64,000 bases of DNA, taken from positions 62,001-126,000 of the forward strand of contig NZ_JAHKQN010000035.1 in NCBI RefSeq assembly GCF_018861125.1, read 5' to 3'. The translations under genes and the position numbers were made by a program. Below the pieces are notes generated by a model. The model worked only from the letters and a program-made list of their open reading frames with translations, was not told the DNA's origin and ran no database searches. This document shows, piece by piece, positions 1,748-52,203 of the stretch. This DNA is from Cellulophaga baltica (GTDB lineage: Bacteria; Bacteroidota; Bacteroidia; Flavobacteriales; Flavobacteriaceae). How positions within the stretch are numbered: position 1 is the stretch's first letter; each line of letters starts with the position of its first letter.

Positions 1748-1755
1748 ATACTTTT

Positions 1756-4446: not shown

Positions 4447-4457
4447 GGGTTGATTTA

Positions 4458-7426: not shown

Positions 7427-7447
7427 AAAATCTGTTCTTTTAACTAT

Positions 7448-9760: not shown

Positions 9761-9769
9761 ATTTTTTCT

Positions 9770-11548: not shown

Positions 11549-11555
11549 TATACTT

Positions 11556-12884: not shown

Positions 12885-12917
12885 AATTATTTTATTGAAT
12901 AATATTTTAGCTGAAAA

Positions 12918-14495: not shown

Positions 14496-14506
14496 TTTTA
14501 TTTGGT

Positions 14507-17104: not shown

Positions 17105-17136
17105 TTTGTAGGGTTTATTTTCGAGATAATAATTGG

Positions 17137-18531: not shown

Positions 18532-18539
18532 TATTTCTA

Positions 18540-21706: not shown

Positions 21707-21755
21707 TTTTATAAATTTGTTCCTGTTTGTTTAATTGATATTGCTAAATAATATT

Positions 21756-24059: not shown

Positions 24060-24094
24060 ATCTGTTTATCTTACTGTTTGGTTTTGTACTATTT

Positions 24095-25711: not shown

Positions 25712-25733
25712 AAAATAGATTTAAATCTTTTCT

Positions 25734-28988: not shown

Positions 28989-29006
28989 ATCTAGTGGTTT
29001 TAGTTA

Positions 29007-30128: not shown

Positions 30129-30132
30129 ATTC

Positions 30133-31209: not shown

Positions 31210-31219
31210 ATATTTTGAA

Positions 31220-32185: not shown

Positions 32186-32194
32186 ATTATTTTC

Positions 32195-34072
32195 TTAATT
32201 TTCGTATTTTCTTACTTTATCTAACCAAGTGAATTTTAATATAGCTGTTGTTATAGCAAATATCACAAAGGCAATCAATGTCATTGAATAATCTCTTATC
32301 ATAAAATATATTGGCAATAAAATCATACTTGATTGCCACACAATACCTATAACACAATTCATCATATCAGACCAAAAATCTGAGTTTTTAGTAAAGCTAT
32401 TATCTTCTTCATTTAATTCTTTATACACTGGGTTCCATAACCCCCATGGCCTAACGTTGGCATAAAACTTTTTAAGAGTTTTCATATCAGTTGCAGGTGT
32501 TAATATCGTTCCTAATATTGAACCTAACAACGAAACTGCAAATATTACTAAGAACATGTATATCGTAGGTATTTGAGCTATATGATACATTACCGTATCT
32601 ACTTCAAAATTTGCTTTGTTTTTATCTACAATAAATTGCAGTGTCGCAATAATTAAGCCAGAAGTCATTCCCCAGAAATAACCCCAACCGTTAAAACGCC
32701 ACCAAACCCATTTTAAAAAGTTAGCTGCAACATATCCACCATAAAGTGCACTAGTAATCCATAATGTAATTGAGTTGATAGAATCAGCAAAAAAGCCCAT
32801 AACAACACCTAAAGTCACTACAACTATTGATGCTAAATGACTCACTCTAATATAATGCCTATCTGAAGCTGTTGGCTTAAAGTATTTTTTATAAATATCA
32901 TTTACAATATATGCGGGACTAGAATTTACAAATGCTGAAAAAGTGGACATAAATGCTGCTAACAAACCTGCTAACAACAAACCTTTAATACCAATTGGAA
33001 CATGGTTATTAATTACTTTAGGCAAAATAACTTCTAAATCTGCCAAACTTAAACTAGCAGAGCTTGCCATATCTGGTGCAATAAAAACTAAGGCCAAAAC
33101 AACCACACCTCCAATAAGTAAATAACGTGGAATAAATAAGATTAAGTTTGTAAAGCCACTCATATATGCCGCTTCTTTAACAGATTTTGTAGATAGTATT
33201 CGCTGCATATCAAAACCTGGTGTTGGACCTGCTATACTTGCGAAAAAGCCTTTGAATAATGACATACCTATAAAAGCTCCAAACATTTTATACCCTTGTG
33301 TGTCTACCAAAGTATTGAAAGCTTCATATTTACCCGTCCAAGTACCCTTTAAATTTGTATCAAAAAATATAGCTCCCCAGTCTTCTGAAATAATGCTATA
33401 TAATTGCACATCGGTAACTTCAACAAAAGCATATATTGCAACCAAAACACCAGCAACTACCATAATTGCGTATTGTAAAACCTCAGTAGCAACAACTGAA
33501 AACATACCACCTTTTATAGTATATATTGTCGTTAAAAAAATTAATATTAAAGCATAACTTTGATCAGAAGTAAGAAGAATATTATCGCCAGAAATTAAGG
33601 AGAAATCCCATGGTAGAATAATGGTCATAAATTTACCTACGCCTTCAAAAAAGTAAGCAATAAACCCTATAGAAGCTATTACAGCAAAAATAGCAACTAT
33701 TAAATGTGAAGCCCTACCTGGTCTATCATCTCCAAACCTAGTTAAAATCCACTCTGACCCTGTCATTATATTAGACCTTCGAATCCAAGCTGCTAAAAAA
33801 ATCATTATGAAGACTTGGTTCCATACAGGCCAAATCCACATAAACATAAAACTCTTTGCTCCATAAAGAAACAAAACACCTACCATCCAAGCAGTTCCAG
33901 AAACATCAAACATACCCGAGCCATTACTTAAACCTAAGTAATACCATTTGATACTTTTTCCTCCTAAGAAATAAGAATCTAATCCTTTTGAGGCGCGTTT
34001 TGAAATCCAAATTCCAACACCCAGTGTTAGTACAATATATAGTACTATAATTATTACATCTACAATATGCAT
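32195..34072 (-). CDS. sodium:solute symporter (SSS family)
   Basis: 625 residues with about 13-14 predicted membrane helices. SSS features are LGVGIWISKRASKGLDSYFLGG at the N-terminus, LSNGSGMFDVSGTAWMVG (first discontinuous helix) and LLAGLLAAFMSTFSAFVNSS (sodium site region). A hydrophilic segment about 535-575 precedes two last helices, the long form seen in Bacteroidota carbohydrate clusters. It is sandwiched between GH92 (18 bp gap) and the cytoplasmic GH130 (9 bp gap), so import of a mannose-containing mono- or disaccharide is the simplest hypothesis; the substrate cannot be read from sequence. Confidence 0.92.
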   Translation of the reverse strand: MHIVDVIIIVLYIVLTLGVGIWISKRASKGLDSYFLGGKSIKWYYLGLSNGSGMFDVSGTAWMVGVLFLYGAKSFMFMWIWPVWNQVFIMIFLAAWIRRSNIMTGSEWILTRFGDDRPGRASHLIVAIFAVIASIGFIAYFFEGVGKFMTIILPWDFSLISGDNILLTSDQSYALILIFLTTIYTIKGGMFSVVATEVLQYAIMVVAGVLVAIYAFVEVTDVQLYSIISEDWGAIFFDTNLKGTWTGKYEAFNTLVDTQGYKMFGAFIGMSLFKGFFASIAGPTPGFDMQRILSTKSVKEAAYMSGFTNLILFIPRYLLIGGVVVLALVFIAPDMASSASLSLADLEVILPKVINNHVPIGIKGLLLAGLLAAFMSTFSAFVNSSPAYIVNDIYKKYFKPTASDRHYIRVSHLASIVVVTLGVVMGFFADSINSITLWITSALYGGYVAANFLKWVWWRFNGWGYFWGMTSGLIIATLQFIVDKNKANFEVDTVMYHIAQIPTIYMFLVIFAVSLLGSILGTILTPATDMKTLKKFYANVRPWGLWNPVYKELNEEDNSFTKNSDFWSDMMNCVIGIVWQSSMILLPIYFMIRDYSMTLIAFVIFAITTAILKFTWLDKVRKYEN

Positions 34073-34090
34073 GTATGTCTTAGCTTTAAA

Positions 34091-36328
34091 TTATATTCCC
34101 CACTCTTTATTTGGCGCATCACCCATTACAAAATGTAATGTTCCCCCTTGTAAAATTGTTTCATGAGAAATGTTGGTCTGGCTGAATTCAACACCGTTTA
34201 GTGTTGCCGATTGGATGTAAATATTTTTATCAGAAACATTTTCCGCCTCTATTACAAAGCTTTTACCTTCTGATATGTTTATTGTAGATTTTTCAAAAAT
34301 TGGACTTCCAATTTCATAAGTAGTCGATGACGGGTTCATTGCATATAAACCAATTGAACTTAACACATACCATGCACTCATTTGACCACAATCTTCATTA
34401 CCACTCAAGCCATTTGGAGTTGTATTGTATTGCGTATCTAATATATGACGAACCCAAAATTGTGTACGCCATGGTTTACCTGCATGATTAAATAAATATG
34501 CGATATGGTGACTAGGTTCGTTACCATGCGCATACTGACCTATTAAACCAGAAATATCAGCTGACACATTTGAACCATTGATTTCTGAGCTTTCAGTAAA
34601 CAATTGTTCTAATCTTTTTGTAAATACTTCGTTTCCACCATGAAGTGAAATAAAATCTTCGACATTATGCGGTACAAACCAGCTGTGTTGCCAAGCGTTA
34701 CCTTCTGTATAATCCGTATGTTCTCTGTGGTTTGAATATTTCGGATCAAAAGGCTCGTGCCAAGTTAAACCATCATCAGCCTTACCACGCATAAAACCAG
34801 AATCAGCATCAAACAAAGGTTGGTATGCTTTTGAACGCTTCAAGAAATACTTATAATCTTCATCTTTACCTAAAGCCTTCGCAATTTGAGCAACACACCA
34901 ATCATCATAAGCATATTCTAATGTTATGGTCACAGATTCATCTAATAAGTTATAAGGAATGTAACCGTATTTTTTATAATGATCCAAGCCTCTTTCATCT
35001 TGCATCATTGTTTTTTTCATAGCCTCATAAGCTTTCTCTCCATCAATTCCTTCTACACCTTTTAAATACGCTTCAACTATCACAGGTATTGAATGGTAAC
35101 CCGTCATTGTATTTGTTTCATTTGCATAAAGCGTCCAAACAGGAAGTATTTCTTTTGTTTTATAGTACTCTAACATTGTATTCACAATATCAGAAACTCT
35201 ATCAGGAGCTAATAATGTAAGTAATGGTTGCTCTGCTCTAAACGTATCCCACAATGATAATGTAGAGTAAGCTGTATAATCTGTTGCAGTAACAATACTA
35301 TCATTCTCTTTTCTAAACTGACCATTTTTATCACTGTATGTTACAGGCGCTAATTGCGTATGATATAAAGATGTATAGAAAATAGTCTTTAAAGAATCAT
35401 TTTCTGTTTCAACAGTAATTTTAGATAATGCTTCATTCCATTTATCTTCTGCAGCTGTTTTTACAGCATCAAAATTAACATCAGCATCTAAATTTTGCTT
35501 TGCATTTTCAATACTTACCGAAGACAATGCCACTTTTACCAACAATGTAGCATCATTTTTTTCATCAAAAAATAACTGAGCAGCAGTTTTAATACCTTCA
35601 GCTTTACTTTTTTCAGTTGCTTCATCATCAGCTATAAAAGATTTTTCAACTACAGGCTTTGAAAATTTTGCTACAAAAAATACTTTTTGGTTTTTAGCCC
35701 AGCCCGTACTATAACGGTAACCTGATAAGGTATACTCGTCTTCTAATTCAATACCAGTACTTGTTGCTTTATCCCAATTAATTCCGAAACCAAGATTTAA
35801 AACTACAGATTGCTTATCACCTTCTTTAAAAGTATATTTATGATGAGCTGTACGCAATGATGTAGTTAATTCTACATTTACATTATGATCTTCAAGAAAA
35901 ACCTGATAAAACCCCGGAGTTGCAGTTTCATTCTCATGACTATATTTAGATGCATATGAAAGTGAATCTCTACTCGTAATTTGTGTAGAAAGTGACACCT
36001 CTTTATTAACTGGCATAATCATCACATCAGCTAAATCACCAATACCAGTACCACTTAAACTTAAGTGACTAAAACCTATGGCAATAGAATCTGAATAATG
36101 ATAACCAGAGCACCAATCCCACTTACTTATACCATTAACCGGACTAACCTGTAACATACCAAAGGGAACGGTTGCACCTGGATATGTATGTCCATGACCA
36201 CCTGTACCTATAAAAGGGTCTACTTTAGCAATTAAAGGTTGCTCTTTCTCAAGCACTGTAGCCTTTTTATTTTCACTACAGCTAGAAGCTAATATTGCAA
36301 TAAAAAGAGGAAGAATATATTTTTTCAT
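34091..36328 (-). CDS. GH92 family alpha-mannosidase, lipoprotein; first gene of the 36-kb operon
   Basis: 745 residues from the ATG at 36328, which gives a clean lipoprotein signal (MKKYILPLF, lipobox SSC at Cys17). In-frame ATGs upstream to 36364 would add 12 residues and spoil the signal. GH92 motifs are VDPFIGTGGHGHTYPGATVP, LSLWDTFRAEQPLL, TEGNAWQHSWFVPH, NEPSHHIAYLFNHAG and LSGNEDCGQMSAWYV. The HGHTYPGA and EPSHHIAY segments match classical GH92 alpha-mannosidases more closely than the copy at 25734-27980. It heads the enzyme operon and is divergent from lytS (about 95-130 bp between starts), so its control region is the likely switch for all enzymes downstream. Confidence 0.93.
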   Translation of the reverse strand: MKKYILPLFIAILASSCSENKKATVLEKEQPLIAKVDPFIGTGGHGHTYPGATVPFGMLQVSPVNGISKWDWCSGYHYSDSIAIGFSHLSLSGTGIGDLADVMIMPVNKEVSLSTQITSRDSLSYASKYSHENETATPGFYQVFLEDHNVNVELTTSLRTAHHKYTFKEGDKQSVVLNLGFGINWDKATSTGIELEDEYTLSGYRYSTGWAKNQKVFFVAKFSKPVVEKSFIADDEATEKSKAEGIKTAAQLFFDEKNDATLLVKVALSSVSIENAKQNLDADVNFDAVKTAAEDKWNEALSKITVETENDSLKTIFYTSLYHTQLAPVTYSDKNGQFRKENDSIVTATDYTAYSTLSLWDTFRAEQPLLTLLAPDRVSDIVNTMLEYYKTKEILPVWTLYANETNTMTGYHSIPVIVEAYLKGVEGIDGEKAYEAMKKTMMQDERGLDHYKKYGYIPYNLLDESVTITLEYAYDDWCVAQIAKALGKDEDYKYFLKRSKAYQPLFDADSGFMRGKADDGLTWHEPFDPKYSNHREHTDYTEGNAWQHSWFVPHNVEDFISLHGGNEVFTKRLEQLFTESSEINGSNVSADISGLIGQYAHGNEPSHHIAYLFNHAGKPWRTQFWVRHILDTQYNTTPNGLSGNEDCGQMSAWYVLSSIGLYAMNPSSTTYEIGSPIFEKSTINISEGKSFVIEAENVSDKNIYIQSATLNGVEFSQTNISHETILQGGTLHFVMGDAPNKEWGI

Positions 36329-36372
36329 GAAATGATTTATCATATTTACCATATAAAAATTCATAATTTTAA

Positions 36373-36401
36373 CAAATTTTAAAATAAATTTAGACAGACA
36401 A
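36373..36401 (-). promoter_or_regulatory. candidate promoter of the GH92-led enzyme operon
   Basis: On the minus strand a TTG (36399-36401) is followed after 17 bp by TAAAATTTG (36381-36373), close to the Bacteroidota -33/-7 layout TTTG / TAnnTTTG but with a 3-base rather than 2-base gap in the -7 element. Transcription would begin near 36366, giving a leader of about 38 nt to the ATG at 36328 and arguing against the longer start at 36364. Weak match, so low confidence. Confidence 0.3.
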
Positions 36402-36458
36402 CATATTAACGTAGCTAAACATCAAAAAAAATAATTACTTATAGAATTCTTAAATAAT

Positions 36459-37550
36459 ATGAAGTTTAATTCCAATAAAGTTTATCAAGTTTCTCCATTA
36501 CACCATGTAATATTCTGGTTAGTATATTTTCTTTTTAATTTTTTTAGATGGGGGAGTTATTTCGATAACTACTTATACTCATTAAAAACAAATTTACTCG
36601 GCTTCCCTATACATATGATACTTAGCTACTTGAATGTGTATATTTTAATGCCAAAATTTGTTTTCAAAAAAAAATACGTCTCTTACATAATCATCATATT
36701 ACTTTCAATTTTTGCAATGGTGATTATGAAATTCAATCTCACCTATTTTTTAGTGAGTAGTAATGTATGGCCAGAAGGTCCAATACCAACAAATGAGCTT
36801 ACATTAAATTATACGATTGATATGATGATTGGTGAGTTGTATGTGGTAACATTTGTAACCGCAATTAAAATAACCTTAGATTTTTTAAAGGAACACAAAA
36901 GAGTTGCCGATTTAGAGAAAACACAATTGGAAACAGAGCTCTTATTTTTAAAAACCCAAATATCTCCACATTTCTTTTTTAACACATTAAATAATATTTA
37001 TTCGCTTTCGGTTGAAAAATCAAATAAAACACCTAAGATCATATTAATGTTATCTGAACTAATGCGATACCTATTATATGAAACAAAAGGTAAAAGGCAA
37101 TCATTAGAAAACGAAGTACTATGCATCCAAAATTATTTAGACTTAGAGAGGATAAGGCACAATGATGATTTAGATGTAGACATGTCAATTTCTGGAGACA
37201 TTCAAGACAAAGAAATATCTCCTATTTTACTATTAACCTTTATAGAAAACGCATTTAAACATGGGGTTCAAAAAAATATTGGAAAAGTTAAAATTGTCAT
37301 TAATTTAACAATTAAAAAAGATTTTCTTTACTTTTCGATCTCAAACCCTATGCCTTTAGTTACAGCACAGCAACAACCATTAATGAAACAAGCTAGTGGT
37401 ATAGGCCTAGAAAATGTAAAGAAAAGACTTGAGCTAGGCTACCATAAGAACGATTACAAATTAAAAATCAAGGTAAACAAAAAAAATAGATTTGTTGTAA
37501 AACTTAAAATTAGAGTACAAAAAGGGAGTTTTGAGCAAATCAAAGAGTAA
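36459..37550 (+). CDS. LytS/YehU-type membrane sensor histidine kinase
   Basis: 363 residues. Four hydrophobic helices fill about residues 15-145, with a short extracytoplasmic loop near 100-118, then a coiled-coil-like linker and the His_kinase domain (PF06580 type): LFLKTQISPHFFFNTLNNIYSL with phosphoacceptor His171, and an ATP-binding region with LLTFIENAFKHGVQK and ASGIGLENVKKRLEL. No periplasmic ligand domain is present, so the signal is probably membrane-borne or relayed. Its partner is the LytTR response regulator 53 bp downstream. Such pairs are less common PUL regulators than hybrid two-component systems, and its position between the enzyme operon and susC argues that it governs this locus. 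Confidence 0.92.
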   Translation: MKFNSNKVYQVSPLHHVIFWLVYFLFNFFRWGSYFDNYLYSLKTNLLGFPIHMILSYLNVYILMPKFVFKKKYVSYIIIILLSIFAMVIMKFNLTYFLVSSNVWPEGPIPTNELTLNYTIDMMIGELYVVTFVTAIKITLDFLKEHKRVADLEKTQLETELLFLKTQISPHFFFNTLNNIYSLSVEKSNKTPKIILMLSELMRYLLYETKGKRQSLENEVLCIQNYLDLERIRHNDDLDVDMSISGDIQDKEISPILLLTFIENAFKHGVQKNIGKVKIVINLTIKKDFLYFSISNPMPLVTAQQQPLMKQASGIGLENVKKRLELGYHKNDYKLKIKVNKKNRFVVKLKIRVQKGSFEQIKE

Positions 37551-37603: not shown

Positions 37604-38320
37604 ATGTCGATGAAAATAAATTGTTTAATTATAGATGATGAGCCATTAGCTATAAATGTAATAAAAAAGTACCTAGAACAAATTGAAGATTTTGAGGTAA
37701 TTAATACATTTAGCAATGCAATTGAAGGATTAAACTTTTTGAAAAGCAACTCCGTCGACGTTATTTTTTTAGACATAAATATGCCTGTTTTAGATGGTAT
37801 AAATTTCATTAAAAGTTTAGAAAAACCACCTTTATTAATAGTCACCACTGCTTATGACGAATTTGCTTTAGAAACTTATGAATTAGATGTTATTGATTAC
37901 CTAATTAAACCCATTGAATTCCCAAGGTTCATGAAAGCTCTGAACAAAGTCACCAGAAGACTTGATAGTAGTAAAGCAATACAAGAGCCTGTGATTGACC
38001 GTCCATTTCTTTTTGTGAAAATTGATAAAAAGAAAATGAAAAAAATATATTTAGATGAAATTTTAATTATTGAATCACTCAAAGATTATCTAAAAATAAA
38101 TACCACCACAGGTAAATATATTATTCATAGCACCTTATCAGACTTTACAAACCAATTACCTTCTAGAGAATTTATACGAATTCATAGATCATACACGATA
38201 GCCATAAACAAAATTGATGCTGTTGAAGGTAATAGTGTTGAAATTGAAGGCCTTAGATACGTAATTGGCCGATCATATCTTGAAGAAGTAAAGCAAAAAA
38301 TATTAAATTCTTCAATTTAA
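37604..38320 (+). CDS. LytTR-family response regulator
   Basis: 238 residues. Receiver domain at about 4-118 with acidic pocket LIIDDEP (Asp11, Asp12), phosphoacceptor Asp57 in VIFLDINMPVLDG and the LIKPIEF lysine segment. The LytTR DNA-binding domain spans about 133-235, with YLDEILIIESLKDYLKIN, REFIRIHRSYTIAINKID and YVIGRSYLEEVKQKI. LytTR proteins bind tandem 9-10 bp direct repeats about 21 bp apart, and such repeats occur upstream of both susC genes here. A second Met at residue 3 is an alternative start. No terminator is visible between this gene and susC. Confidence 0.93.
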   Translation: MSMKINCLIIDDEPLAINVIKKYLEQIEDFEVINTFSNAIEGLNFLKSNSVDVIFLDINMPVLDGINFIKSLEKPPLLIVTTAYDEFALETYELDVIDYLIKPIEFPRFMKALNKVTRRLDSSKAIQEPVIDRPFLFVKIDKKKMKKIYLDEILIIESLKDYLKINTTTGKYIIHSTLSDFTNQLPSREFIRIHRSYTIAINKIDAVEGNSVEIEGLRYVIGRSYLEEVKQKILNSSI

Positions 38321-38471
38321 ATTATACAAATAATTAACATTAAAGTCACCATTGTTATATAAGTACACTTGATTTAAATATTTATAAAAATTGTCAAATA
38401 AAACCTTCAAAATCAATAAATCCTTAAAAGAACAGTTGCTTTAGCCATAAAATATTAACAATTAAATTTGA

Positions 38472-38503
38472 TTATCTGTCGATAAAATTTAGTTATTCGT
38501 CGA
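38472..38503 (+). promoter_or_regulatory. LytTR-type direct repeat upstream of the first susC
   Basis: Two near-identical half-sites, TTATCTGTCGA (38472-38482) and TTATTCGTCGA (38493-38503), lie in the same orientation with a 21-bp period, i.e. two DNA turns on one face. That is the geometry known for LytTR regulators such as AgrA. The repeat sits directly downstream of the LytTR gene and about 115 bp before the susC start, and its second half ends 31 bp before a candidate -7 element, the same distance as in the second susC promoter. Binding is inferred. Confidence 0.6.
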
Positions 38504-38533
38504 AATTTTTAACTCCCTTTTAGCAAATCATTT

Positions 38534-38542
38534 TAAGTTTAG
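38534..38542 (+). promoter_or_regulatory. candidate -7 element of the first susC
   Basis: TAAGTTTAG resembles the Bacteroidota -7 element TAnnTTTG with a final TAG. No TTTG -33 element is found at the usual distance upstream, as expected for an activator-dependent promoter. Transcription would start near 38548, leaving a leader of about 70 nt. The same TAnnTTTAGT appears before the second susC. Confidence 0.4.
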
Positions 38543-38616
38543 TCCACCCATTACAAAGCTTTTATTGAAAACCGATTTAATATATTTTTTTAATTAAAAA
38601 TTTTTAAATCACTTTT

Positions 38617-41600
38617 ATGAAAGTTAAACAAATTAACCCTGTTACCTCACATGGTAGTAGGTCACTTATTCTCGTAATGAGAGTATTCTTTTTTTTACTC
38701 TTAACATCATCATTTGGAGCAACAAAAACTAATGATGAGGAAAAAAATGTAGTTCTAAATATACAAAACCTTGTCAATGGAACTATTAAGGATGATACTG
38801 ATTTACCATTACCAGGAGTAAACATTCTAGAAAAAGGAACTTCTAATGGTACACAAACAGACTTTGATGGTAATTTCTCAATTACTGTTTCTACCGCTGA
38901 TGCAATTTTGGTCGTATCATACCTTGGATACAAAACAAAAGAGATTCCACTTAACAACAAAACAGAATTATCAATTGTTTTAGAAGAAGATGTTGCCGCT
39001 TTAGAAGAAGTTGTTGTTGTAGGTTTTGGCACACAAAGCAAACAAAAAGTATCTGCATCCATCACTCAAGTTTCTGCAGAAGATCTTGGCACTGACAAAC
39101 GACCTGTTACAAATGTTGCTTCAGCATTAATTGGCTCAATGGCAGGTTTAAACGGATTCAATTCAAGTGGCCAACCTGGAAACTCTCCTAGTTTTTCTAT
39201 AAGAGGAACAAGTACAACTTCATCAGAGGCAGAAGTATTAGTAATAATTGACAACTTTGAAGGTTCATTAGATGATATAAACCCTCAAGAAATTGAATCC
39301 GCAACTATACTTAAAGATGCTTCCGCTGTTGCTATTTATGGTGCCAGAGGTGCAAATGGTGTATTATTAATTACTACTAAAAAAACTAAAAAAGGAGAAA
39401 AAATTTCTGTTTCTTACAATTACAGCAGCGCTATGCAAGCTAAAGGAACGTTACCAGATGTAACAAATGCTCAAGAATATATTAGCCTTGTTAATACCGC
39501 TGCTCCTGACACTTTTAGCAGTACAGTGGTAGACTTAGCAGACAGCGGATTTTATCCAAACACTAATTGGGCTGATGCTTTGTACGGAGGTACAGCTATG
39601 CAACAGTCACATAATTTAACTTTAAAAGGGGGGACTAATAACGCAGGCTTTCTTATGAATGTTGGTTATTTAAACCAAGATGGTTTAGCTATTGGCACTG
39701 ATAATTTTGAACGTCTAAATTTAAGACTAAAAATGGATGTTGATGTAACTGATTGGCTTAGTGTGGGCACAAACACATTGATTACTAACAGACTTACAAA
39801 TACTGTCCCAGTTACAACAGGAACAAATTTATTAGGCTCACCTTTTATGCCAGTAACAACTGAAGATGGTTATTGGGTTGATAAAAGCGGAGGCCTTTAT
39901 GGAGGTGAAGTAAATCCTGTTGCTTTAGCTTCGTCAGGAAGTTATACAAAAACCGACAGAGATAACCTTAACTTACAACTATATGCTAAAATAAAACCTT
40001 TTAAAGGCTTTACATTAGAGCAAAGTGTTTCAATCTTAAAAAATAATACAACCTACAGAGATTGGGACAATACATATGCATACGTGACTTTAGATTATGA
40101 AGATCCTGATTCATATACAAATCCTGATTCTGAAAACAGACTTTATACGGAAGCTTCAACAGATTCAAGAGTATTAACTCTTTATTCTACAACAAGCCAC
40201 ACCATAACAGCACTTACTAAATTAAACTACGATTTTAACATCAATAACGAACATAATTTTAGTACTCTATTAGGTTTTCAAGCAATAGAATATTCAGGTG
40301 AAGGTTTTGCTGCCTCTAGACAAGGTTTTGCATTAGATGACCCAGTTGACTTAGTTTTAGGTGAAGAAGCCAATTCAACTTTATCACTTTTTGGTACAGG
40401 TGAACAATCATCAGGAAATACTTCATATTCAGAAGACACGGCAACCCTATCTTATTTTGGTAGATTAAATTATGATTATAAAGGCCGTTATATTATTGAA
40501 GGCTCATTCCGTTATGACGGTAGTTCTTATTTTGCAGATAATAATAAATGGGGATTCTTTCCTTCTGCTTCAGTTGCATGGAATGCTAAATCTGAAAATT
40601 TCATGAAAGACATAAGCTGGATTGACAGACTTAAACTAAGGGCATCATACGGACTTTCTGGTGATGATTCTGGTGTTGGAGCCTTAACTGTACAATTAGT
40701 AAATTACGATGCTTCTGGAGGATATCCGATAGGAAATGAAGCAAATCCAGGATATACATTAAGTGATTATGCTAATCCAGATTTGAAATGGGAAACTGCT
40801 AAAATTTTTAATGCAGGTATGGATTTCTCTTTATGGCAAGGTAAATTACAAATTAATGCCGATTATTTTATAAATAACAGAGAAGATATATTAGATGAAG
40901 CTCAAGTTGCTGAAGAATTCGGTTTTGGCGGTGGAGAAGTTGCCTCAAACTTATTTGCTGTAAGAAGCTGGGGTTGGGAGTTAAATTTTACTCATAAAAA
41001 TAATATCAGTAAAAACTTTTCATACTGGATAAATGGTAATTTATCTGATTACGATAATAAAATCACGGATTTAGATGGGTATGATAGTGTTGACTTTGCT
41101 GTTGGTCAAAGTGTAAATGATAGATTTGGTTACGAAACGGACAAGTTTTTTAATAGTCAAGATGAAATTGACGCTTATACGACTTCTGATGGTACACTTA
41201 TAGATCAATCCGACGTTGGTGGTTCTTATGTTGGTGGTTTTAAATACTTAGATCAACTTACAGTTGATAGTGACGGAGATGGCGTAATGGATACTGGAGA
41301 TGGTGTTATAAATTCAGACGACCGTGTAATGCTTGAAAGTAATAGTGCTACAAACTACAGGTTTGGTTTTAATCTAGGGTTTGATTATAAAAACTTATCA
41401 GTTTCTGCTCGTTTTTATGGCGCATTTTACAGAAATCAATTTTTAAATAATCAAGCAAGTTCACACGAACCATTTATTGGAGCAAATTCATTTGCATATA
41501 TGTTAGATTACTGGAGTGAAGACAATCAAGATGCTCTATTACCTGTACCTGTAGGCTTTGGAACACAAGGCTATACTTCAAATGTATCTGATTTCATATT

Positions 41601-41838
41601 AGATAATGAATTTATAAAAATGCAGACCCTTAATTTTGGTTACAATTTAACTAATGCTATATCAGCAAAGTTCAAAGGAGTAAAATCAATAAATTTAAAT
41701 CTTTCATTTGAGAATCTTGGAGTTATATGGACCAACAATCCATTATATGAATATGGATGGGATCCAGAGTCAACTATTGGTACTTACAACTACCCCCTGC
41801 CTTTTACTACTTCAGTAGGTTTAAACATTACATTTTAA
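38617..41838 (+). CDS. SusC-like TonB-dependent transporter (first pair)
   Basis: 1073 residues. Signal region at 17-35, a carboxypeptidase-regulatory-like domain at about 53-125 (GTIKDDTDLPLPGVNI, TDFDGNFSITV), a TonB-box region near 128-140 (LEEVVVVGFGTQ), then plug (SFSIRGTSTTSSEAEVLVII, IYGARGANGVLLITTKK) and a 22-strand barrel. A DSDGDGVMDTGDGVINSDDR segment near 885-905 is a calcium-binding-like loop common in this family. It lacks an N-terminal STN domain, so it does not look coupled to a sigma/anti-sigma pair. With the SusD 13 bp downstream it would import oligosaccharides released at the cell surface. Confidence 0.95.
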   Translation: MKVKQINPVTSHGSRSLILVMRVFFFLLLTSSFGATKTNDEEKNVVLNIQNLVNGTIKDDTDLPLPGVNILEKGTSNGTQTDFDGNFSITVSTADAILVVSYLGYKTKEIPLNNKTELSIVLEEDVAALEEVVVVGFGTQSKQKVSASITQVSAEDLGTDKRPVTNVASALIGSMAGLNGFNSSGQPGNSPSFSIRGTSTTSSEAEVLVIIDNFEGSLDDINPQEIESATILKDASAVAIYGARGANGVLLITTKKTKKGEKISVSYNYSSAMQAKGTLPDVTNAQEYISLVNTAAPDTFSSTVVDLADSGFYPNTNWADALYGGTAMQQSHNLTLKGGTNNAGFLMNVGYLNQDGLAIGTDNFERLNLRLKMDVDVTDWLSVGTNTLITNRLTNTVPVTTGTNLLGSPFMPVTTEDGYWVDKSGGLYGGEVNPVALASSGSYTKTDRDNLNLQLYAKIKPFKGFTLEQSVSILKNNTTYRDWDNTYAYVTLDYEDPDSYTNPDSENRLYTEASTDSRVLTLYSTTSHTITALTKLNYDFNINNEHNFSTLLGFQAIEYSGEGFAASRQGFALDDPVDLVLGEEANSTLSLFGTGEQSSGNTSYSEDTATLSYFGRLNYDYKGRYIIEGSFRYDGSSYFADNNKWGFFPSASVAWNAKSENFMKDISWIDRLKLRASYGLSGDDSGVGALTVQLVNYDASGGYPIGNEANPGYTLSDYANPDLKWETAKIFNAGMDFSLWQGKLQINADYFINNREDILDEAQVAEEFGFGGGEVASNLFAVRSWGWELNFTHKNNISKNFSYWINGNLSDYDNKITDLDGYDSVDFAVGQSVNDRFGYETDKFFNSQDEIDAYTTSDGTLIDQSDVGGSYVGGFKYLDQLTVDSDGDGVMDTGDGVINSDDRVMLESNSATNYRFGFNLGFDYKNLSVSARFYGAFYRNQFLNNQASSHEPFIGANSFAYMLDYWSEDNQDALLPVPVGFGTQGYTSNVSDFILDNEFIKMQTLNFGYNLTNAISAKFKGVKSINLNLSFENLGVIWTNNPLYEYGWDPESTIGTYNYPLPFTTSVGLNITF

Positions 41839-41851
41839 AAAAATAAAAAAA

Positions 41852-43540
41852 ATGAAAAAATATAGCATAATAACCTTTTCAATTTTAATCTTAGCATACT
41901 TTTCATCATGCAGTGAAGATTTTTTAGAAATTGTAGATTCAGATGAGTATTCTGCTGATGCATTATATCAAGACGAAGATGATATGGAAAATGCTTTAAA
42001 TGGTTTATATTTATATTTACCAGGTGGCGATATTACCAGCACTAATATAACTCCATATTTTTGGACGGATGATGCTGTACATAGAAACATAAATGATGGA
42101 TCTGGAACAATACGAGAGTCTGATTACAACTGGACTACAACATCAAACGTACTTGATGATTTTTATAAATACACAGCTATAGCAAACATAAATTATTTTC
42201 TTGAAAAACTTCCTGATGCAACTTATACTGATGAAGATACAAGGTCACAACATGAAGCTGAAGCTAGATTTATAAGAGCATATATTTATGAAGAAATGCT
42301 GTTTGCCTATGGGGATGTCGTACTATTAACATCAACAATTAGTACTGATGAATACCCTTCAAGAGATGACAGAGAAGAGGTTTTTGATTTCATAATTTCA
42401 GAATTAGAAGAAATTCAAGACGATTTACAACTATCATACACCTCTGATGATTATGGTCGCATTACACAAGGAGCTGTTTTAGCCTTAAAAGCCAGAACAT
42501 ACCTTAAAGCTTTACACTGGTATTCAGATACCTCAACTTTATATGCAGCAGCAGAAGAAGCTTGTGCTGAAATTATTGCTGGAGGACAGTATTCATTGGT
42601 TGATGGTATTGATGGATTTGAAAGTTTATTTTCAAATTCAGGTGATGGTAACAGTGAAGCTATTTTATCAAGTATTTATATTGAAACTTATAGAACACAT
42701 GGCCTAGCAAGACAATTAGCACAAAAAGGTTCATGGATTGGTAGCTCTGCTACTTTTGCTAATAACCAAAGTCGACCAGGATATTCATCTGATTTTATTG
42801 AAGAGGTACAAACCATCAATGGTTTATTTCCTGCAGATGACTCTGAATACGACCCTGCAGATCCATGGACTAATAGAGATCCTAGACTTGCAGTTTCAGT
42901 TGTGTTACCTGGAGACTTATTGCCTTCTAAAACAGATTCCGATGAAGATTACGAATATCAACCACACCCAAGTATAGGTACTACTACTGATGATATAAAT
43001 AAAACATCTGCACCAACCGGTTATGGTTTTAGAAAATATATTGATTATGATTTAGATGCTCTTGACCAAGGTGATGTAGATATTGAACTAATAAGGTATG
43101 CAGAGGTTTTACTTATGTATGCAGAAGCATTAGCTGGCCAAGGAAGAGACGGTGAAGCATTAACTTATTTAGATATGGTACGTGATAGAGTTGGCATGCC
43201 TAAATATGCTGATATAGGTTTACCAACAGTAACAAGAGGTACTACAGGAAACACAATGATTGATGCTATTTTACTAGAACGTCGTTATGAATTTGCAGGT
43301 GAAGGACAACAACGTTGGTGGGATATTTGGCGTTATCAATTAGGTAATCAAGTTATTACCCAAGTTTATGGAATTCCAACAAGCACCACAGAACCTGGAG
43401 ATTTAGTTGGTGAAAAATATAAAGCTAGTAACAGTGACACACAGTATGCTAGAGTATGGGATGATAAATATTATTTATTACCAATTTCACAAACCGTTTT
43501 AGATGCAAACCCAAACATTACTCAAAACGAAGGATGGTGA
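41852..43540 (+). CDS. SusD-like outer-membrane glycan-binding lipoprotein (first pair)
   Basis: 562 residues, lipobox FSSC at Cys20, then SEDFLEIVDSDEYS, the typical SusD N-terminus. TPR-like helical segments include EAEARFIRAYIYEEMLFAYGDV and ALTYLDMVRDRVGMPKY, and the C-terminus carries ILLERRYEFAGEGQQRWWDIWRY, the RagB/SusD family hallmark. It forms the lid of the adjacent SusC. The C-terminal third is very similar to the second SusD (47109-48827), including the GMPKYADIGLPT and RGTTGNTMIDAILLERR stretches, while the central ligand-contact region differs more, suggesting duplicated pairs that diverged in ligand. Confidence 0.95.
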   Translation: MKKYSIITFSILILAYFSSCSEDFLEIVDSDEYSADALYQDEDDMENALNGLYLYLPGGDITSTNITPYFWTDDAVHRNINDGSGTIRESDYNWTTTSNVLDDFYKYTAIANINYFLEKLPDATYTDEDTRSQHEAEARFIRAYIYEEMLFAYGDVVLLTSTISTDEYPSRDDREEVFDFIISELEEIQDDLQLSYTSDDYGRITQGAVLALKARTYLKALHWYSDTSTLYAAAEEACAEIIAGGQYSLVDGIDGFESLFSNSGDGNSEAILSSIYIETYRTHGLARQLAQKGSWIGSSATFANNQSRPGYSSDFIEEVQTINGLFPADDSEYDPADPWTNRDPRLAVSVVLPGDLLPSKTDSDEDYEYQPHPSIGTTTDDINKTSAPTGYGFRKYIDYDLDALDQGDVDIELIRYAEVLLMYAEALAGQGRDGEALTYLDMVRDRVGMPKYADIGLPTVTRGTTGNTMIDAILLERRYEFAGEGQQRWWDIWRYQLGNQVITQVYGIPTSTTEPGDLVGEKYKASNSDTQYARVWDDKYYLLPISQTVLDANPNITQNEGW

Positions 43541-43570
43541 TGTTTATATAAAAAATACTCTTAAATTACT

Positions 43571-43608
43571 AAAAGCCTCAACAGTAAACTGTTGGGGCTT
43601 TTGTTTTT
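43571..43608 (+). terminator. rho-independent terminator after the first susD
   Basis: AAAAGCCTCAACAGT (43571-43585) pairs with ACTGTTGGGGCTTTT (43588-43602) with one mismatch, a two-base nominal loop, then a T-rich run to 43609. It lies 30 bp after the susD stop and separates the two SusCD pairs into independent transcripts, consistent with the second susC having its own promoter. Confidence 0.85.
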
Positions 43609-43675
43609 TCTGCAAATAAGCACAGTATTATCTTGTTAAATTTTATTTTCTTCAAAAAATTACTTCAAATATATT

Positions 43676-43707
43676 GTGTTTATCGTACCCGACAAGTTAT
43701 TGGTCGA
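43676..43707 (+). promoter_or_regulatory. LytTR-type direct repeat upstream of the second susC
   Basis: The second half-site, TTATTGGTCGA (43697-43707), differs from that of the first susC by one base within the 15-bp context AGTTATTsGTCGAAA. Twenty-one bp upstream is a weaker half-site, GTGTTTATCGT (43676-43686), sharing T-TT--TCG. The second half-site ends 31 bp before the TAnnTTTAGT element, exactly as in the first susC promoter. Conserved sequence and spacing in otherwise dissimilar DNA suggest one regulator, probably the LytTR protein at 37604-38320. Confidence 0.5.
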
Positions 43708-43737
43708 AAAATTCATGTCAAAAATTTTTATTGTAAA

Positions 43738-43746
43738 TAGTTTTAG
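43738..43746 (+). promoter_or_regulatory. candidate -7 element of the second susC
   Basis: TAGTTTTAG, matching the TAnnTTTAG form at the first susC, with a T following in both. No -33 TTTG upstream. It gives a leader of roughly 85 nt to the ATG at 43835 and makes the longer reading frame start at 43676 untenable, because that lies upstream of the promoter. Confidence 0.4.
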
Positions 43747-43834
43747 TAAATCTTTAACACTAGTTTTAATTACAATAAAACTACAAAACACGACCAATAT
43801 TAAACAATTTTACAAACTAAACAACTCATGTTTT

Positions 43835-46800
43835 ATGGAAATTAAACTCAAAAACACTCCATTTTTTTTTAAAAAAGGGATGTTTAATCTTTTAACAAGA
43901 GCATTTATTTTTCTTTGCTTTAGTTCAACTTTTGGTTTTAACCCAAATGTGGACTTAATTACAGCTGAAGATAAAATTGCTTTGCAAAGTCAAATTAGCG
44001 GTACCGTTTTAGACAACAACGGACAACCATTACCTGGTGTAAACATCGTTGAAAAAGGAACTTCAAATGGAATGCAAACAGATTTTGATGGTAATTTTAC
44101 TCTTACCATTTCAAATAGTGATGCCGTTTTAGTAGTTTCTTATCTTGGATACAAAACTAAAGAGGTAAGTGTAAGCAGTCAAACAGAATTATCAATTGTA
44201 TTAGAAGAAGATGTGGCCGCTTTAGATGAAGTTGTTGTTGTTGGTTTTGGCACACAAAACTCATCAAAAGTAGTAAGTTCTGTTGTTCAAGTAACTAATG
44301 AGGAGCTAAATCTTGAAAAGAGACCTGTTACAAATGGTTACTCAGCATTAGTTGGTTCTGCTCCTGGTCTTGTTATGACAAATAACAATGGTTCTCCAGG
44401 TGCTATTCCGAGTGTTCAAATTAGAGGAACTAGTACAATTGGTGACGCCAGTGACGTATTAGTAATTATTGATAACTTTGAAGGCTCTTTATCTGATATT
44501 AATCCTCAAGATATTGAGAGTGTATCCGTTTTAAAAGATGCATCAGCAGTAGCTATTTATGGAGCTCGTGGTGCAAACGGTGTGTTATTAGTAACTACAA
44601 AAAAAGCTTCTAGAAATAAAGAAACTACGGTTAGCTATAACGCAGTATCATCAATACAAACAACTCCAAGATTACAACAAACAGTTAACTCTATTGAATA
44701 TATGGAGTTTCAAAATGATATTGCACCAGGTACTTGGAGTGAAGAATCGTTAGCACTAGCAAATAGTGGTTTTTATCCTGACACTAACTGGATTGAAGAA
44801 ACATTTGAAAGTAGTGCCGTGCAACAATCGCATAGTCTTACATTATCAGGTGGCTCAGAAAAAACAGGCTTTTTAATGACAGGGAGCTACTTAACTCAAG
44901 AAGGTTTAGCCCTAGGCGAAGATAAATTTGAAAGATTAAATTTACGTTTAAAAATTGATACCGACATTAACAGTTGGTTAAATATAGGTACTAACACACT
45001 ACTAAGTAATAGAACAGATAAATCTGTAACAGTAGTAAGTGGTGGTAACACAAGAGGTTTACCTTTCTACCCTGTAAAAACAGTTGATGATTTATGGGTA
45101 AGTAATGGTACAGCTGATGGTGCTAACCCTGTGGCAAGTGCTTCTTCAGGTAGTTTTAGCGAATCTGATTTAGATAGAATTAATGTTCAGTTATATGCAA
45201 AATTGACACCAATAAAAGGCTTAACATTTGAAGAACGTGTTTCTTATATAAAATCAAATGAGTATGCTAGAGAATGGACTAATCCTTTTTCATCAGTAAG
45301 CATTGATCCTACTGATCCAGATTCTTACACTAATCCTGACTCTGAAAATAGAGATTATTTTATTGCATCAACGGATGAAAGAGTTTTAGAAGTAGCATCA
45401 TTAAAATCACATGAATTTCGTTCTTTAACATCTTTAACTTATGAATTTGAAAAAGGAAAACATTATGCTAAAGCATTTTTAGCAGTTCAAACAGAAAGTG
45501 GCGAATCTGAAACTTTATCTGCTAGTAGAACAGGTTTTCTTTTCGATAACATAATTTCATTAAATCAAGGAGAGATTGTAAATGATAGTAATGATTATGA
45601 TGGTCTTGGAAATACTGAGGTTAGAAATGGTAATGAAAAAACATTATCTTATATAGGAAGACTTAATTACAGCTTTGCAGATAAATATTTAATTGAAGCT
45701 GCATTTAGAAGAGATGGTTCTTCTTATTTTACAGATGAAAACAAATGGGGATTTTTTCCTTCAGTAGCTATAGGTTGGGTTGCTTCTAGAGAAAACTTTT
45801 TTGAAAATGTAGATTTTGTTGATTTGTTAAAACTAAGGGCTTCTTATGGTTCTGCTGGATCTGATGGTACTCTTGGCTCAGTAACACAACAATTAGTAAC
45901 TTATGATGCATCTGGTTACCCATTAGGTGGTGTTTCAAATGCAAGACTAGGTGTTGATGATTTTGTAAACCAAGATCTAATTTGGGAAACATCAACTATA
46001 TTAAACATTGGACTTGATGCTTCTTTTTTTAATAGAAAATTATCATTTGAGGCTGAATATTTTGTGAATAATCGTAAAGATATTTTAGACAATATTTCTT
46101 CTACTGCATATGAGTACGGTTTTGGAGATGCACAAGGCAACCCATATGATGTTAGAAGTTGGGGTTGGGATTTAAATGTAAATCATAAAAATAAAATTGG
46201 AAAAATTGGTTATACTATTGGTGCTAATATTTCTAATTATGATAATAAAGTAACTTATATTCAAGATGGTGCTGAAACAAACACACTACAAGAAGGGTTG
46301 AGTGTAAATAACCGATTTGGATATCAAGTTGATGGATTTTTTGATACACAGGAAGAAATTGATACATATACAACCGCTGACGGAACTTTAATTGACCAAA
46401 GCGATGTAAGTACATCTCTTGACAATTCTGTTGGAACATACTTAGGTGGTTTTAAATATATTGATCAATTAACTATAGATAGTGATGGTGATGGCGTAAT
46501 GGATACAGCGGATGGAGTTATTGACAGTGATGACCGTGTAACAATTGATGATAATAATGATAGAAACTGGAACGTTGGATTTAATTTAGGCGTTACTTAT
46601 GAAAACTTATCATTATCTGCTCGTTTCTATGGTTCATTTGACAATAATCAATATTGGAATGCGGCAAATGTTGTTGACCCATTTTTAGGAGGTGGTGTAC
46701 CTTGGTCATACCAACTTGATTACTGGTCAGAAACTAATACTAACCCATTAGTACCAAGACCTATAAGTACTAGTAACGAAAGTTACAATAGTGCTATAGA

Positions 46801-47050
46801 TTATTATATTGTTGATGCTGAATTTGTTAAACTACAAAACATCACTCTTAATTATGATTTCAGCCAAAAACTACTACAAAATATTTCATTTATAAAAAGT
46901 TTAAATATCTATTTATCTATGGAAAATGTTGGTGTGGTTTGGACAAACAGTCCTGTTTATGAGCATGGTTGGGATCCTGAATTAGGAATAAACACTATAG
47001 ATTATCCTTTACCATTTACTACTGCCATTGGTTTAAATGTTAAATTTTAA
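43835..47050 (+). CDS. SusC-like TonB-dependent transporter (second pair)
   Basis: 1071 residues from the ATG at 43835 (MEIKLKNTPFFF), chosen because the open frame to 43676 would place 53 residues over the promoter and regulatory repeat and ahead of the signal peptide (LLTRAFIFLCFSSTFGF). Domains are as in the first SusC: regulatory-like domain about 53-130 with ISGTVLDNNGQPLPGVNIV, TonB-box region ALDEVVVVGFGTQ, plug with SVQIRGTSTIG and AIYGARGANGVLLVTTKK, then the barrel. The SDGDGVMDTADGVIDSDDRV loop recurs. Similarity to the first SusC is strong at the N- and C-termini and weaker in barrel loops. The SusD start follows about 58 bp after the stop. Confidence 0.95.
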   Translation: MEIKLKNTPFFFKKGMFNLLTRAFIFLCFSSTFGFNPNVDLITAEDKIALQSQISGTVLDNNGQPLPGVNIVEKGTSNGMQTDFDGNFTLTISNSDAVLVVSYLGYKTKEVSVSSQTELSIVLEEDVAALDEVVVVGFGTQNSSKVVSSVVQVTNEELNLEKRPVTNGYSALVGSAPGLVMTNNNGSPGAIPSVQIRGTSTIGDASDVLVIIDNFEGSLSDINPQDIESVSVLKDASAVAIYGARGANGVLLVTTKKASRNKETTVSYNAVSSIQTTPRLQQTVNSIEYMEFQNDIAPGTWSEESLALANSGFYPDTNWIEETFESSAVQQSHSLTLSGGSEKTGFLMTGSYLTQEGLALGEDKFERLNLRLKIDTDINSWLNIGTNTLLSNRTDKSVTVVSGGNTRGLPFYPVKTVDDLWVSNGTADGANPVASASSGSFSESDLDRINVQLYAKLTPIKGLTFEERVSYIKSNEYAREWTNPFSSVSIDPTDPDSYTNPDSENRDYFIASTDERVLEVASLKSHEFRSLTSLTYEFEKGKHYAKAFLAVQTESGESETLSASRTGFLFDNIISLNQGEIVNDSNDYDGLGNTEVRNGNEKTLSYIGRLNYSFADKYLIEAAFRRDGSSYFTDENKWGFFPSVAIGWVASRENFFENVDFVDLLKLRASYGSAGSDGTLGSVTQQLVTYDASGYPLGGVSNARLGVDDFVNQDLIWETSTILNIGLDASFFNRKLSFEAEYFVNNRKDILDNISSTAYEYGFGDAQGNPYDVRSWGWDLNVNHKNKIGKIGYTIGANISNYDNKVTYIQDGAETNTLQEGLSVNNRFGYQVDGFFDTQEEIDTYTTADGTLIDQSDVSTSLDNSVGTYLGGFKYIDQLTIDSDGDGVMDTADGVIDSDDRVTIDDNNDRNWNVGFNLGVTYENLSLSARFYGSFDNNQYWNAANVVDPFLGGGVPWSYQLDYWSETNTNPLVPRPISTSNESYNSAIDYYIVDAEFVKLQNITLNYDFSQKLLQNISFIKSLNIYLSMENVGVVWTNSPVYEHGWDPELGINTIDYPLPFTTAIGLNVKF

Positions 47051-47108
47051 TATAATGACAAAAGTAAATACACACACGAAACTTTTATTTTTAAATATAA
47101 TTTTGATT

Positions 47109-48827
47109 ATGAAAAATATAAAAACCTTCAAAGTAGCATCTTTACTGTTATTGATTGTCTTTATTAGCTCTTGTAGCGATGACTTTCTTGAGGTAGAAGA
47201 TCTTGATGAAATTGACATTTCTACTGTTTATCAATCAGAAGAAGATTTAAACCTAGCGTTAAACAACCTATACTTTGCATTGCCAATATTAGATATTGAA
47301 GACCCTCTATTTAGTGTTGATGCAAACCAAGCATATATAGTACCTTATTTTTGGACCGACGATGCTATACACAGAAATATTGCAAATACAGCAGATAACC
47401 AAGGTTCTGATTTTAACTGGTCTGATAGTAGAAGATCTTTAAGAACTTTTTACCGCTATCACGATATCGCAAATATTAACTTTTTCCTAGAAGCATTACC
47501 TGGAGCAACTTTTGAAACAGAAGCAAATAGAGATAGGTTTGAAGCAGAAGCACGTTTTTTAAGAGCATGGATTTACGAATCAATGGTATTAGCTTATGGT
47601 GATGTACCATTAGTAACAACAACTCTTTCGCCTACGGATAACCCAACTAAAACACCTAGAGAGGAAGTGTTTGAATTTGTAATAAGTGAATTAGACGAAA
47701 TAGATGATATTTTACCAGAATCATACTCAGGCGATGATGTTGGTCGTATTACTAAAGGAGCGGCATTAGCTTTAAAATCTAGAGCTTATTTAAATGCAAT
47801 TGGCTGGAATAGTGATGTTGATGCAATGTATGCAGGCGCTGAAGCTGCTTGTTCAGAAATTATTAATGAAATCGGAATCTATAGTTTAGTTGACGGTATT
47901 GATGGTTTTAAAGAACAATTTACACCTGATAGTGATTTAACATCGCCAGAAACAATATTAGAAACAATATATGTCTTAGGTATTAATGTTAGTAGAATTG
48001 CATTACAGGTTTCTCCAAGAGATTTGTACAAGGGGCCTAATGGAAGTGGAAATAACCAAAGAAGAGCCGGGTTTACATCTGATTTTATTGAAGAAGTACA
48101 AACAATTAACGGTTTATTCCCTAAAGATGATCCTGAATATGACCCTGCAAATCCGTGGGAAAATAGAGATCCTAGATTAGAAGCTTCTGCTTATTTACCA
48201 TTAGATGAATTTTTAGGAACAGATGGTGTAAATAATGATATTTTTCAACCTCATCCATTTTATGAAGATACAAGAGATTGGGTTTCTGCAAACAACAATA
48301 ACCCTACAGGATATAATTTTAAAAAATATACTGATTATTATATGCTTAACAATATAGAAGGAAATGCTGATTTAAAAATAATCAGATATTCTGAAATATT
48401 ATTGATGTATGCTGAAGCTTTAGCTGGTCAAGGTAGAGATGCAGAAGCTTTAACATATTTAGATCAAGTACGTGAACGTGTGGGTATGCCTAAATATGCT
48501 GATATTGGTTTACCAACAATCACTAGAGGTACAACAGGAAACACCATGATTGATGCTATTTTATTAGAAAGAAGATATGAATTTGCTGGTGAAGGCCCCC
48601 AACGTTGGTTTGATATTTGGAGATATAAGTTAGGAAGCCAAGTTATAGGTAATGTTTATGGCATACCTGATGATGTTGATTTGCCAGGTGATTTAACTGG
48701 TCCAAAATATGACGCCAATGACCTTACTACATATCAAAGAGTATGGGATGACAACTATTATTTACTTCCATTCTTTGTAACTTTTACTGATGATAATCCT
48801 AATTTAACACAGAATCCTGGATATTAA
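47109..48827 (+). CDS. SusD-like outer-membrane glycan-binding lipoprotein (second pair)
   Basis: 572 residues from the ATG at 47109, giving a proper lipoprotein signal (MKNIKTFKVASLLLL, lipobox SSC at Cys22). The open frame extends back to 47037, overlapping the SusC gene, but the extra 24 residues would precede the signal. SusD features are FLEVEDLDEIDISTVYQSEE, FEAEARFLRAWIYESMVLAYGDVP and the terminal RRYEFAGEGPQRWFDIWRYK. It pairs with the second SusC. The segment YADIGLPTITRGTTGNTM is almost unchanged from the first SusD, evidence for tandem duplication of the pair. Confidence 0.95.
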   Translation: MKNIKTFKVASLLLLIVFISSCSDDFLEVEDLDEIDISTVYQSEEDLNLALNNLYFALPILDIEDPLFSVDANQAYIVPYFWTDDAIHRNIANTADNQGSDFNWSDSRRSLRTFYRYHDIANINFFLEALPGATFETEANRDRFEAEARFLRAWIYESMVLAYGDVPLVTTTLSPTDNPTKTPREEVFEFVISELDEIDDILPESYSGDDVGRITKGAALALKSRAYLNAIGWNSDVDAMYAGAEAACSEIINEIGIYSLVDGIDGFKEQFTPDSDLTSPETILETIYVLGINVSRIALQVSPRDLYKGPNGSGNNQRRAGFTSDFIEEVQTINGLFPKDDPEYDPANPWENRDPRLEASAYLPLDEFLGTDGVNNDIFQPHPFYEDTRDWVSANNNNPTGYNFKKYTDYYMLNNIEGNADLKIIRYSEILLMYAEALAGQGRDAEALTYLDQVRERVGMPKYADIGLPTITRGTTGNTMIDAILLERRYEFAGEGPQRWFDIWRYKLGSQVIGNVYGIPDDVDLPGDLTGPKYDANDLTTYQRVWDDNYYLLPFFVTFTDDNPNLTQNPGY

Positions 48828-50272: not shown

Positions 50273-50278
50273 AATATT

Positions 50279-50737: not shown

Positions 50738-50738
50738 A

Positions 50739-52194: not shown

Positions 52195-52203
52195 ACAGAA
52201 AAA

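Follow-up and report, generated by a model that had tools for sequence, protein, structure and literature searches.

Our comparative analysis of a 64,000-nucleotide stretch of Cellulophaga baltica DNA (contig NZ_JAHKQN010000035.1 of assembly GCF_018861125.1, positions 62,001 to 126,000; hereafter the window) revealed a two-part site of fixed geometry ahead of two susC genes, here termed susC1 and susC2, and ahead of a divergent operon headed by a GH92 glycoside hydrolase gene. The site lies beside the genes for a LytS-type sensor kinase and a LytTR response regulator, is conserved in related genomes and co-occurs with the regulator. Judged from these sequence comparisons, the element is very probably the operator of the neighbouring LytTR protein, which would directly activate a dispersed, N-glycan-type regulon in response to a signal received by LytS. 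An earlier note on this DNA had proposed LytTR control of glycan import from the two susC promoters alone. The comparative sites support such control, but the proposed scope was too narrow: similar sites also stand ahead of the divergent GH92 operon and of other, distant genes.

A two-part site with fixed spacing to the promoter

On the plus strand, the word AGTTATTsGTCGAAA described in the earlier note occurs at 38491 and 43695, upstream of susC1 and susC2, respectively, and searching both strands of the own genome with the pattern gave just these two exact copies in the window. The motif GTTATTSGTCGAAA starts at 38492 and 43696, 42 bp ahead of a TAnnTTTA box in both promoters, and the distance from the A of GTCGA to TAAGTTTAGT (38534) and to TAGTTTTAGT (43738) was measured as the 31 bp previously reported. 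Likewise as described, neither promoter has TTTG at the -33 position, and 151 bp separate the end of the LytTR gene (38320) from the first half-site.

Each operator consists of two 10-nt half-sites separated by an 11-nt gap, giving a period of 21 bp. At susC1 (plus strand), the upstream half-site ATTATCTGTC (38471..38480) is atypical and is followed by the downstream half-site GTTATTCGTCGAAA (38492..38505) and by the predicted -7 element TAAGTTTA (38534..38541), at +42 from the start of half-site 2. The susC2 operator on the same strand comprises TGTGTTTATC (43675..43684) and GTTATTGGTCGAAA (43696..43709), with the predicted -7 element TAGTTTTA at 43738..43745. That of the GH92 operon reads on the minus strand, with the upstream half-site GATGTTTAGC (36414..36423), the downstream half-site GTTGTCTGTCTAAA (36389..36402) and a -7-like element AATTTTTA (36354..36361). 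The repeat is evident at GH92, weak at susC2 when the halves are compared directly, and atypical at susC1. The earlier claim of a 21-bp repeat at both susC genes held for susC1, where 12 of 16 positions are identical at this period, the best among periods of 15 to 29, but not for susC2, where direct comparison gave 8 of 16 and another period did better. Measured against the half-site 1 consensus of other genomes, the upstream half of susC2 reaches 8.7 bits, a score attained by 0.03% of window positions, and that of susC1 is unlike the consensus (-8.8 bits, attained by 14% of window positions); the second half of susC1 scores 13.8 bits, and its first half resembles a second half. The period is LytTR-like, as the earlier note had suggested, and fits published LytTR operators, in which, as a rule, 11-13 nt separate two repeats of 9-11 nt (PMC4847170).

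Conservation of the site and co-occurrence with the regulator

Among 249 genomes of the family, 38 including our own, and thus 37 others, carry a LytTR of what we term group A (at least 54% identity, E-value of 6.7e-84 or better). Regions of up to 20 kb were read around the 37 other group-A LytTR genes and around three lower matches (G199, G160 and G002), 40 in total; L172, L173 and L174, below the 54% cut, were excluded. A LytS match adjoins LytTR in all 40 regions, mostly divergent from GH92-SSF-GH130-CBM9-GHL10 genes, and 34 of the 37 other group-A regions have a match to the core of the site upstream of LytS. From 34 other genomes we built a matrix of 37 bp that excludes the own genome and omits L135, L160 and L164 (3, 3 and 2 mismatches; the L164 match was judged spurious by eye); in L160 the site lies further out and scores 24.7 bits. 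Its conserved columns include G..GTTTAGC at -21 to -12 (GTTTAGC at -18 to -12), AAnnTTTA at 41 to 48, and GTTRTTSGTCTAA at columns 0 to 12, whose conservation is circular, as these columns served as the anchor. A WAnnTTTR box is present in 29 of the 34 training sites, at +41 in 23 and at +42 in 6.

With this matrix, the search among relatives proposed in the earlier note found the two-part, 21-bp-period site at 12 bits or more upstream of LytS, directed away from it, in 35 of the 37 other group-A genomes. Together with one lower match these make 36 sites, of which 24 face GH92 as the next gene and the rest SSF, CBM9 or others. In the window itself, scanned on both strands, the matrix ranked the GH92 site first (40.5 bits) and the susC2 site second (24.6 bits), followed by a score of 5.4, with susC1 at 0.0. 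Over the 791,284 bp of sequence surrounding these 40 LytTR genes it gave 53 matches of at least 12 bits, compared with 1.25 for permuted matrices and 3 for the reversed sequence. Besides the 36 sites upstream of LytS, 14 of these matches are intergenic elsewhere and 3 lie within genes on the opposite strand. The 14 stand ahead of SusC-like (4), NagB-like (3), GH92-like (2) and other (5) genes; the three NagB-like proteins share 75-80% identity with a G121 protein with Pfam matches to Glucosamine_iso and PIG-L, and two of the five other targets encode a 695/697-aa protein weakly like the window GH29 (24%). One region (L138, oriented positions 4849 and 8280) holds an identical 37-bp operator twice, ahead of GH92 and ahead of a sulfatase-like pair located between GH92 and LytS, an arrangement suggestive of a duplicated promoter.

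A further set of 80 named orthologs, mostly from Flavobacterium but also from Tamlana, Wenyingzhuangia, Maribacter, Gelidibacter, Algibacter and more, left 72 loci outside the training set after 8 that share a training site had been dropped. A site of at least 20 bits was present in 67 of the 72, located 36-237 bp (median 50) upstream of the LytS open reading frame (ORF), and 66 of these 67 have WAnnTTTR at +41/+42. Two of the misses, L209 and L252, have sites of 31.5 and 20.7 bits further in, where the script found no LytS ORF; the site in L238 scores 13.9 bits, and upstream of LytS no site is present in L182 or L256.

Throughout the 3.92-Mb own genome, GTTATTSGTCGAAA has four exact copies, compared with no match in the reversed control. 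A looser search with up to two mismatches gave 65 matches against 116 in the control and was dropped as noise. The pattern RTYRTYNGTCKAAW gave 13 matches (control, 9), eight of which start with GTT and finish with GTCKAAA, while the other five start with ATT and reach at most 4.8 bits by the matrix. The genome-wide search that the earlier note had also proposed revealed a placement of these eight copies that is not random: seven are intergenic, on the same strand as and 74-136 bp ahead of the likely ATG of glycan-type genes, and one lies within a gene. Apart from susC1, susC2 and GH92a in the window, the seven precede a susC gene on contig C3 with a SASA esterase nearby, a susC gene on C18 with a GH92 upstream of it, a GH2 gene on C18, and a gene on C10 for a secreted protein of unknown function whose next genes are GH92 and GH20. 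All seven have WAnnTTTR at +41/+42, where 0.010-0.042 would be expected by chance per site. By the full matrix, the C18 susC site scores 23.5 bits and the C10 site 19.3 bits. Of the 20 own-genome SusC genes that exceed the family cut-off, four are preceded by the motif when one mismatch is allowed. Just upstream of the C3 susC gene, a response-regulator receiver is fused to a GT2 glycosyltransferase domain (L075, 7843-8988).

The exact motif derived from the own genome occurs in 24 of the 249 genomes, namely in our own, in 10 of the 37 other group-A genomes and in 13 of the 211 without a group-A LytTR (p 4.7e-4). In the 10 group-A genomes, 9 of 12 copies stand ahead of a susC-like gene, with one each ahead of a NagB-like gene, ahead of another ORF and in coding sequence; in the 13 others, none of the 13 copies precedes a susC-like gene and 6 lie within coding regions. 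Group-A genomes contain the two-part pattern in 21 of 38 cases and the remaining genomes in 4 of 211, with one reversed-control match; the count is partly circular, as the pattern was designed from the same genomes. GH130 is likewise concentrated in group A (31 of 38, compared with 9 of 211). Two of these nine could not be judged, as the contig ends inside GH92 (G170) or there is no GH92 operon (G023). Two genomes with the GH92 operon and neither of the two LytTR types described below (G217 and G220) have no site of 8 bits before GH92. In G220, a gene that by eye is GntR-like (L301, 15763-16488) faces the GH92 locus that lacks such a LytTR and the site, as if its control had been replaced.

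Alternative explanations and the proposed mechanism

The shared word by itself is not significant, because 67 of 1000 trials with a pair of shuffled upstream regions (296 and 291 bp) gave a match of 14 of 15 bases. As the whole explanation, however, a chance likeness of two AT-rich promoters is scarcely credible: it is contradicted by the ranks obtained with the out-of-genome matrix, the contexts of the exact copies, the 53 matches against few in the controls and the recurrence at further loci. It is also very unlikely that this LytTR binds the site to repress transcription until glycan appears. The LytS start lies 57 bp from half-site 2 of the GH92 operator, so the site may overlap the lytS promoter too. 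Against repression, the site lies upstream of a poor -33 box, which is the usual layout of activator-dependent promoters. Moreover, the two-component pair CusS/CusR of Flavobacterium johnsoniae is required for ChiA (PMC5127042).

We further consider it improbable, if less so than repression, that the element is the operator of another regulator, either an AraC-type hybrid two-component system (HTCS) or a different LytTR, with the present LytTR a mere neighbour. Several observations count against our preferred assignment here. A period of this length is not by itself diagnostic of LytTR, since several predicted HTCS motifs repeat every 20-21 bp; predicted motifs of Bacteroides HTCS, those of alpha-mannan loci included, have direct-repeat periods of 16+5, 12+9 and 14+6 bp (PMC3878776). 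The stretches of 16-19.5 kb read around the C3 and C18 sites contain no LytTR of this type, and of the 14 LytTR matches in the own genome a different one (C3:98998), just outside the stretch read and 12.9 kb from the C3 site, could serve that site. Five genomes (G006, G240, G219, G209 and G155) lack a group-A LytTR yet have the site before GH92 (28.5-38.9 bits); each of them has a LytTR paralog with 46-49% identity. Furthermore, two of the 37 group-A regions, L135 and L164, have no 12-bit site (the former, also labelled L081, has a lone copy of the second half after LytTR), and only four of the seven own-genome sites reach 19 bits, since the upstream halves differ at the C3 susC (8.5 bits), GH2 (7.0 bits) and susC1 sites. 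The own NagB homolog (C5:72444) has no site either, though some NagB-like genes of relatives do. On the other side, Pfam revealed no AraC-type gene and no HTCS with a fused kinase in 38 of the 39 listed window ORFs (all but one antisense ORF). Exact copies of the motif ahead of susC are confined to genomes that have this LytTR, the GH92 operons of G217 and G220, with neither LytTR type, lack a site of 8 bits, and LytS/LytTR is present in every region read, although these regions were chosen by LytTR and their unmatched ORFs are unannotated. The GTT.. form of the half-site also agrees with the LytTR repeat consensus. We rejected the idea that the site merely travels with the GH92/GH130 operon: of the nine non-group-A genomes with GH130, the five that bear the site also have a paralogous LytTR, and G217 and G220, with neither LytTR type, have no site of 8 bits before GH92. 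The expectation that the paralog's own loci in those five genomes would carry the GTC site was not borne out in the susC promoters examined, those of G006 and G155.

Assignment of the site to the neighbouring LytTR suggests a mechanism; from the arrangement of genes and sites we infer DNA binding, an activating rather than a repressing effect, the signal and the substrate. LytS would most likely sense a glycan-breakdown product. Two LytTR subunits may then occupy the two half-sites 21 bp apart, as for other LytTR regulators. Bacteroidota promoters have a -33/-7 consensus, and the bound site would sit just upstream of the -33 region, a placement supported by the position of WAnnTTTR in own and training sites, with the promoters being predicted ones. 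From there, LytTR could bring in polymerase at promoters whose -33 box is weak and whose downstream -7 box is fixed in position. Targets would comprise the GH92/GH130/asparaginase operon, both susCD pairs of the window, and further susC, GH2 and uncharacterized genes elsewhere.

Similar operators have been described in other bacteria. Those of YpdB, HdrR and BrsR also consist of two direct repeats (PMC4847170, PMC6193735); in the Streptococcus mutans LytTR regulatory system operons (HdrR, BrsR), the repeats are 12 bp apart and located just upstream of -35 (PMC6193735). The regulon proposed here differs in being dispersed, in having Bacteroidota-type promoters with a -7 box and in comprising SusC/D and glycoside hydrolase genes. 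Bacteroides HTCS and SusR resemble our system in that they regulate susC/D loci via direct repeats, with a period of 20-21 for several HTCS (PMC3878776). However, HTCS have an AraC-type DNA-binding domain with sensor and regulator fused in one protein, and the repeats of SusR are 67 or 77 bp apart. As regulators of polysaccharide utilization loci (PULs), the literature excerpts name HTCS, ECF sigma/anti-sigma pairs and SusR-like systems; among the matches listed from the open-access literature, none defines a LytTR operator for susC/D genes. Our system would represent a new regulon under a known kind of regulator.

Glycan genes of the window and a second LytTR type

The LytS-type sensor histidine kinase (363 aa; 36459..37550, plus strand; PF06580, Pfam E 2.6e-22) is followed on the same strand by the LytTR response regulator (238 aa; 37604..38320; PF00072 1.4e-20 and PF04397 2.3e-18), the proposed activator, and by susC1 (38617..41838; TonB-dependent SusC-like; Pfam and TIGR04056), susD1 (41852..43540), susC2 (43832..47050) and susD2 (47037..48827), the last three assigned by Pfam. 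For susC2, the ATG at 43832 is favoured over the mechanical GTG start at 43676, which falls within the operator region. By eye, LytS has membrane helices and only a short outer loop, and its signal is not obvious from the sequence. Downstream of the susCD pairs, a DctP/Q/M TRAP transporter and the fucose permease gene fucP (over the NCBIfam cut-off) lie at 48977-53544, where the matrix scan of the window listed no strong site. A second-half-like match of 14.2 bits (54897-55003), with no half-site noted upstream of it, precedes a 372-aa ORF without a Pfam match (55003-56121).

On the minus strand, a run of 21 ORFs in the same direction, no two neighbours being more than 49 bp apart (311..36364; ORF list and Pfam), forms the proposed target operon and is probably transcribed as a single transcript. 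Pfam matches in this run include two GH92, an SSF symporter, GH130, CBM9, GHL10, Asparaginase_2, GH29, GH95, GH3, GH30 and numerous sulfatases. For the GH92 ORF, the mechanical start (36364) lies upstream of the proposed -7 box, and a lipoprotein-like MKKYILPLF start at 36328, 36 bp further in, is more likely. Left of the window (C10:40000-52000), there are two GH20, one GH92, one GH43 and one sulfatase gene. With its susC/susD pairs and carbohydrate-active enzymes by Pfam, the window contains a PUL, and the markers of N-glycan degradation loci, GH92, GH130, GH20 (left of the window) and an asparaginase-type amidase, are all present. Their combination suggests N-glycan-type glycans as the substrate, perhaps sulfated and fucosylated ones; Asparaginase_2 also includes other amidases, and the amidase and GH130 have NCBIfam matches under the cut-off.

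A second type of LytTR adjoins SusC/D genes and, in some cases, MFS, HGSNAT-like or NagB-like genes. A tree separates the two types, though several of its outgroup rows are wrong ORFs picked by length and the bootstrap is unsettled. F. johnsoniae CI04 has both types, its ortholog being 78% and its paralogous regulator 46% identical to the window LytTR. At its second-type locus (L320), SusD-SusC-GH18-SusD-SusC genes face LytS-LytTR-MFS, and 21-bp direct repeats stand ahead of both susC genes, with GTA in the second half where group A has GTC. Counted by eye, these cusC promoters have the TAnnTTTA box at +41. Promoter stretches beside the paralog carry the GTA-type site in five of nine cases and neither type in four (G155, G115, G002 and G006). 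In L308, L309, L310 and L320, the second-type sites read GTATAA in place of the first-type GTCTAA.

Judged by its gene order, the CI04 locus appears to be the F. johnsoniae chitin locus that includes Fjoh_4563/4564 (PMC5127042), which also suggests that CusR is a second-type LytTR; the words LytTR and LytR do not appear in the main text of PMC5127042. Like our pair, CusS/CusR (Fjoh_4563/4564) is a two-component system beside SusC/D genes that is needed for glycan use: a cusS-cusR deletion eliminated both growth on chitin and ChiA (PMC5127042). Unlike the N-glycan-type genes addressed here, its targets are chitin genes in one contiguous locus (PMC5127042). If CusR is such a LytTR, this would be an earlier, genetic example of a PUL under the control of a LytTR-type pair. 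We tentatively propose that Flavobacteriaceae may have a LytS/LytTR family specialised by glycan, with GTC operators for N-glycan-type genes and GTA operators for chitin and N-acetylglucosamine genes in a sister lineage including CusR, in which the C or A at operator position 9 and matching protein residues would set the regulon.

An operator defined in this way, present next to orthologs in Flavobacterium, Maribacter, Gelidibacter and others, would allow the regulon to be listed genome by genome, and susC genes that lie scattered and lack a known substrate could be tied to a single diet. The finding further points to a candidate operator for CusR, the known regulator of chitin use.

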